Shown: piece by piece, positions 288 through 17,787 of the stretch | Layout of the letters: every line of letters starts with the position of its first letter | Position numbering within the stretch: the first letter of the stretch is position 1 | Assembly (NCBI GenBank): GCA_022483015.1 | Contig: JAKVOB010000001.1 | Coordinates: forward strand, 2,008,902-2,072,901 | Direction of reading: 5' to 3' | DNA from: Atopobiaceae bacterium | Lineage (GTDB): Bacteria; Actinomycetota; Coriobacteriia; Coriobacteriales; Atopobiaceae | DNA: 64,000 nt | Notes under the pieces: model-generated | The model's input: only the letters and a program-made list of their open reading frames with translations | The model's database searches: none | What the model was told of the DNA's origin: nothing | Translations under genes and position numbers: made by a program

Positions 288-1418
288 TCAGTCGCCGAGG
301 AAGCAGGTGCCTCGGACGAGCTCTGTGCCTTCGTCTTGGTACGGGAGTTGGCCGGTGCGTTCTTGGCCACGAAGTCGGCATCCATCGAGTAGTGGCACCT
401 GGAATAGTGGCCCTGTCTCGGTGGTATAGGTCTCAGGACGCTCCGAGCGGCACTTGTCCGTGGCATACGGGCACCTCGGGCTGAAGGAGCAACCGGCGGG
501 AACGTTCACGAGCGAAGGCGGGTTGCCCTTGATGGGTGTCAGGGGGACCTTCTCGTTCGCGAGAGGCTTGGGGATCGAGCGGACCAGGCCCCAGGTATAG
601 GGATGCATCGGGTTGTAGAAGATGTCATCGGCCGAGCCGAACTCCACGGGGCGGCCCGCATACATGACCATGATCTTGTCGGCGACGTCGGCCACCACGC
701 CGAGGTCGTGCGTGATCATGACGATGGCGTTGCCGTTCTTCTCCTGCATCTCCTGCATGAGCTCGATGATCTGGGCCTGGATGGTGACGTCCAGGGCCGT
801 GGTCGGCTCGTCGGCGATGAGGATGTCCGGGTCACAGGCAAGGGCCATGGCGATCATGACGCGCTGACGCATTCCGCCAGAGAACTGGTGAGGGTAATCC
901 TTCACGCGTTGCTCCGGGTTGGGGATGCCGACCATGTCGAGCAGCTCGACGGCGCGGGCCAAGGCCTCCTTCTTGGAGTACCCACGATGCAGGCGCAGAC
1001 CCTCGCCAAGCTGACGCCCGATGGTATAGACGGGGTTCAGCGAGGTCATGGGGTCCTGGAAGACCATGGCAATGTCGTTGCCACGGATGTCCTGCATCTG
1101 CTTGTCGGTCATCTCGAGCAACGAGTGGCCACGATAGCGGATGTCGCCGCCCTCGACCCTTCCCGGCGGCATGTCGATGAGGCCCATGATGGTCATGGCC
1201 GTGACCGACTTGCCGCTTCCGGACTCCCCCACCACACCGAGGGTCTCGCCGCGGTCGAGGGTGTACGAGACGCCATCGACGGCCTTGACGACGCCGTCCT
1301 GGGTGTGGAAGTACATCTTGAGGTCATCAAGCTCGAGCAGATGGCATCCCTCGGGGACCGGCTGGTCCTTGAGATCGACGTGCTGCTCGTTGCTGTTGTT
1401 CTTCTTCGTCATGATCAC
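288..1418 (-). CDS. Peptide ABC transporter ATPase, OppD/DppD type, with frameshifted C-terminus
   Basis: Cytoplasmic ATPase of the first peptide importer. Walker A GESGSGKS, signature FSGGMRQR, Walker B ILIADEP and the H-loop MITHDL are intact, followed by the first part of the C-terminal cysteine region ([15 protein letters not shown]). At about residue 336 the frame leaves the family: the expected tail [17 protein letters not shown] lies in the +1 frame and ends at TGA 259-257, overlapping the next start. One extra base in the ccc run at 411-413 explains it. As read, the product is 376 aa with an unrelated tail and lacks the fourth cysteine. The start is GTG 1418, overlapping the upstream TGA, or ATG 1412. 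A sequencing or assembly error is as likely as a real mutation. Confidence 0.9.
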
Positions 1419-16853: not shown

Positions 16854-17787
16854 TCAGCCGCGCGCCTCGGCGAGAAGGGCCTCGAGCCTCAGGACACGGT
16901 GATACAGGGCGGACTTCGAGAGGATGGGGTCGCTCATCTGCCCCAGGTCCCTGAGCGACAGCTCGGGGTACTCCCGACGCAGGTCGCAGAAGGCGCGCAA
17001 CGCCGGCGGCAGGGCGTCGAGACCCACCTCCTGCTCGACCTGGTCGATCAGGTCGAGCTGGTCGGCCGCCGCACCGCACGAGCGGGCCTGGTTGGCCATC
17101 TCTGCGTTGACGCGACGGTTGACGTCGTTCTTCACCGACTTGAACCTGCGTGCCTGCCCGACGGCCAGGGCCGTACGCGTCGCCCCCAGCGCCATGAGCA
17201 GACGCACGACGTCATCGAAGCTCTTGAGGTAGATGGCAAACGCCCCACGCCGGCGGTTGAGCCGCGCCTTGACGCCAAGGCGCGAGCAGAGCGAGACGAG
17301 GTCGAGGGCGAGGTCCTCCCCCGTCACGGCCATCTCGAGGTGGAAGTCGCCCCGGGGGTCGGCGACGAAGCCGCCAGCCATGAACGCACCCCGCACGAAG
17401 GAGGCACAGCAGCAGTCGCGCTCGACGAGCCGACGGGGGATGCCCTGGGCGAGGCCGCGCCCCGGGACGAGGACCCCCATGCGCACCAGGGCCTTCTCGA
17501 GGTCCGCCTGGTCAGGGCACCTCGATGAGGTAGTTCCGGGTCTTGTGCAGCACCGACCTGCGCACCGTCAGCTGCGTGTCGAGGTCGAAGCACTTGTGGA
17601 CCAGCTTGATGACCATCCGCGCGACGGCCCCCGTCTCGGTGGCCACCTTGAGCGAGTAGTTCCCCGAGCCCCTGAACGAGAGGGTGCCGCACACACGCAC
17701 GAGGGCGGCGAGCTCGGCGATGTCGCATTCCGGGCAGGTACCCTCCACGCGCGAGAGCTCGTCCTTGACCTCTGCCGTGAACGACAC
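16854..17787 (-). CDS. whiA: DNA-binding regulator WhiA, split by a +1 frameshift at CCC-TGA
   Basis: WhiA is a conserved regulator with a LAGLIDADG-like N-terminal domain and a C-terminal HTH. The first part (GTG 17787, SFTAEVKDELSRVEGTC) reads to NYLIEVP and then meets TGA at 17514-17512. The rest (DQADLEKALVRMGVLVPG to the HTH segment LRDLGQMSDPILSKSALYHRV) continues in the +1 frame to 16854. Joined, it gives about 310 aa, the normal length. The junction reads GAG-GTG-CCC-TGA-CC: dropping one C or the T restores the frame. CCC-TGA after an SD-like GAGGTG resembles the prfB programmed site, but a homopolymer error is equally possible. The start lies one base after the rapZ stop. Confidence 0.9.

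Follow-up and report, generated by a model that had tools for sequence, protein, structure and literature searches.

The whiA gene lies on the minus strand of the window, that is, the whole 64 kb stretch of DNA analysed here, and is divided between two reading frames. The first frame starts near position 17787, runs to ...NYLIEVP and closes with a TGA at 17514–17512 (minus strand); this N-terminal part (17515–17787, minus strand) comprises 91 codons and its frame ends CCC-TGA. The rest of WhiA resumes one base further on, from 17513, as DQADLEKALVRMGVL..., and this C-terminal part extends up to its stop (16854–17513, minus strand). The junction reads GAG-GTG-CCC-TGA-C (17523–17511, minus strand), with GAG-GTG directly 5' of CCC-TGA-C, and the whiA alignment places one extra base there relative to every relative. 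In the NCBIfam profile for WhiA (TIGR00647), the N-terminal half matches positions 1–86 and the C-terminal half positions 94–302 of 304; the profile positions are consecutive and both halves score above the family cut-off. Normal WhiA sequence is retained on both sides of the junction, and no other decay was seen in the alignment with relatives and with the TIGR00647 profile. Both halves thus match this family of LAGLIDADG-related regulators, and the split is found only in this assembly. The frames adjoining whiA read as rapZ-like and uvrC-like proteins, which we take to be its usual neighbours.

The whiA frame break is far beyond chance, whereas the recoding ingredients at the junction are not. 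A codon-usage frame scan of the window detected only two clear intragenic frame breaks, one in whiA and the other in an oligopeptide ABC transporter ATPase gene (259–1418). The latter is a single-base break near the 3' end of the gene, in the context ACAGGGCC at 411–417 (minus strand; genome position 2009314), recorded by both the frame scan and tblastn. The last approximately 50 codons of this gene lie in another frame. The original prediction had described an N-terminal frame ending GAG-GTG-CCC-TGA-C, with WhiA continuing after a one-base skip, and a second +1 break at 411–413. The frames and the two TIGR00647 halves confirm the former, and the latter is real, lying near 411–417 in the ATPase gene; the strand of whiA, left out of that description, is the minus strand.

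Among relatives, the junction is spanned in one frame, with no stop, in all 93 other whiA loci retrieved by tblastn (29 in whole genomes and 64 on genome contigs; some may stem from one and the same organism). Codons at the junction were compared for 29 of these loci; the prevailing reading in relatives is LIE-[IMV]-P-[ED]-Q, and neither a codon nor a base is added. The pattern ...NYLIE-x-P-stop, with TGA as the stop, was present in one of 140 family genomes, namely this genome alone. Another broken whiA, a short open frame in family genome G025 (L021), was rejected as an apparent scaffold join at an undetermined base and not a frameshift; there, ...GGFIADPR is followed by the undetermined base and then by unrelated sequence. 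With the pattern confined to one genome and all 93 loci uninterrupted, conservation of a recoding signal across the family is rejected for this junction, and the conservation of CCC-TGA across related whiA genes that the original prediction had named as support for recoding was not found. The upstream hexamer fared no better as a mark of recoding. In the congener G001, the only other species of the genus compared, whiA is intact and GAG-GTG likewise precedes the junction; the hexamer is therefore not specific to the break and follows from conservation of the protein sequence. Across 800 kb of this genome, GAG-GTG is found in frame 224 times.

The genome-wide load of frameshifts was assessed by tblastn in both directions, using 1.2 Mb of this genome and 1.2 Mb of the congener, whose assembly is Illumina-derived, and the candidates of both genomes were sorted by eye. 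This genome yielded 26 candidates across the 479 kb of its coding sequence that homologs cover. Setting aside candidate 1548204 as a gene border, and candidates 1413985 and 1462683 as low-identity and uncertain, leaves about 23 clear indel frameshifts, 19 of which are single-base insertions. The frame-switch candidates 2001751, 1747747, and 2252098 were also dismissed, being gene borders or poor alignments. The congener gave six formal candidates in 462 kb, none of them judged real: three mirror the breaks of this genome, having been found with the broken gene as query, and the other three are weak or located at stop-to-stop frame ends. Additionally, a homology-free frame scan of 800 kb of each genome recorded 16 breaks in this genome against 2 in the congener.

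The broken genes, named by NCBIfam from their intact copies in the congener, include leuS (leucyl-tRNA synthetase, three breaks), ftsZ, smc, yloV, trpS (tryptophanyl-tRNA synthetase), cca (CCA-adding enzyme), and an IMP dehydrogenase-like gene. The sole bacterial-type leuS (genome positions 1699423–1701945) lies in several frames, with single-base breaks at 1701570, 1701191, and 1700980, one of them at CCC-TGA-C. The sole ftsZ (genome positions 1841775–1842714) lies in two frames split at a CCCTTT run and falls below its family cut-off. Searches of the whole genome returned no unbroken copy of either gene. A cell in which ftsZ, leuS, and the other genes were really broken could not live; the breaks are therefore errors, unless almost every one is bridged by the ribosome.

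The break at CCC-TGA-C is shared by three genes of this genome, whiA, leuS, and yloV. Further junctions read NCC-TGA or GGC-TGA, and most have no stop. Moreover, some breaks are losses of one base, and the junction contexts are heterogeneous. The 19 single-base insertion junctions lie between genome positions 1283345 and 2026418, and 13 of them carry CCTG (7) or its complement CAGG (6), as compared to 2.7 ± 1.6 at random coding positions, a motif picked post hoc. This excess is a lead and not proof, since the word was chosen after looking; a hold-out stretch (genome positions 676001–1076000) had few homologs and provided only 35 kb. As the motif is about equally frequent on either strand, it does not behave like a ribosomal signal, which would be restricted to the sense strand. 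With insertions falling mostly at CCTG or CAGG, several by coincidence produce what looks like a ...CC-TGA-C stop. A modified base at these sites, or some other PacBio error tied to the sequence in this organism, could account for the concentration at this motif.

Judging from the sequence comparisons, the extra base in whiA is very probably a residual single-base insertion error of a long-read (PacBio) metagenome assembly, with no recoding involved. The organism's true whiA would run to about 310 codons without interruption, like that of every relative. The assembly would contain many such errors, mostly single-base insertions and in the majority at CCTG or CAGG, and polishing with few reads may have left them behind. 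This genome consists of 2,276,002 bases in one contig. Table 1 of PMC9302107 describes UW_MP_ATO2_1 as an Atopobiaceae genome sequenced by PacBio Sequel II, with 2.276 Mb in one contig, a GC content of 65.2%, and 9 thousand aligned reads; it was assembled by metaFlye and polished by GCpp. From its size, contig number, GC content, and family, we infer that this genome is that published PacBio MAG. For the species of UW_MP_ATO2_1, the study also reports six Illumina MAGs, UW_MP_ATO2_2 to UW_MP_ATO2_7, with an ANI of 0.999 (PMC9302107).

As is characteristic of long-read indel errors, the frameshifts affect conserved genes that are unrelated to one another, essential genes among them, and are absent from the Illumina-derived congener. 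The gene-fragmenting indel errors of long-read assemblies of small genomes, the subject of Kastor (PMC12007338), are likewise single-base indels that break conserved genes left intact in relatives. The errors found here differ in being mostly insertions, with a post hoc excess at CCTG/CAGG, and are not confined to long homopolymers. The original prediction had weighed recoding and a base-calling or assembly error equally. The error is strongly supported by the breaks in ftsZ and leuS, whereas recoding finds no support, the pattern being present in one of 140 genomes and whiA intact at 93 of 93 loci.

Alternatively, the insertion may be genuine, whiA being a true pseudogene or polymorphic in this strain. 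Some Gram-positive bacteria can do without WhiA, and the loss of whiA alone would accordingly be viable. However, breaks of the same type are found in this assembly in ftsZ, in trpS, and at three places in leuS, which a living cell would not survive, and the two halves of whiA are otherwise normal, without further decay. We thus regard a genuine insertion as highly unlikely.

A programmed +1 ribosomal frameshift at CCC-UGA-C, through which full-length WhiA would depend on RF2 or another signal in the manner of prfB, is more doubtful still and has hardly any probability. The whiA junction does resemble the prfB (RF2) site in having a pyrimidine-rich codon before TGA-C, an SD-like hexamer upstream, and the +1 direction, and CCC-TGA-C is also a break point in leuS and yloV. 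The ingredients noticed in the original prediction, namely CCC, TGA-C, GAGGTG, and the +1 shift, are therefore present, but the spacer, CTTT, and conservation are missing. In a prfB-type site, 3 nt separate the SD-like sequence from the slippery codon and 6 nt separate it from the stop downstream, and CTTTGA occurs in nearly every prfB motif (PMC12421855). At whiA, GAGGTG abuts CCC with zero spacer, the slippery sequence is CCC-T, and only the TGA followed by C (17514–17511, minus strand) agrees. Furthermore, the site lies in a different gene and is conserved in no relative, the uninterrupted whiA of the congener has GAG-GTG before the junction as well, the majority of breaks lack a stop where the frame shifts, and the motif is about as often antisense, where a ribosome could not read it. 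The prfB gene of this genome is itself uninterrupted, open throughout. A survey reported prfB frameshifting to be absent from Actinomycetota (none in 2,658), with an efficiency of about 6% in M. smegmatis (PMC12421855). A literature search on whiA and frameshifting, judged from titles and abstracts, returned nothing bearing on a recoding site in whiA. The same evidence makes it equally hard to credit that whiA is truly interrupted in this species and that a +1 shift peculiar to the lineage restores its reading at CCC-UGA-C.

Least credible of all is pervasive +1 recoding, in which the ribosome would shift frame in many interrupted genes; although there are many +1 breaks in conserved genes, several of them at NCC-TGA-C, the junctions are heterogeneous (CCCTTT in ftsZ), some breaks are one-base losses, the motif is sense in 7 cases and antisense in 6, and the congener has no break judged real.

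Residual insertion error in the assembly is hence the preferred reading: the split of whiA is a real observation, and the recoding site is almost certainly not a real feature. Caution is needed in this MAG wherever a +1 shift coincides with a stop and looks like a recoding site, as such sites are most likely insertion errors favouring a short DNA motif. Other apparent frameshifts, pseudogenes, and missing genes in this assembly should similarly be given no biological meaning unless short reads support them.
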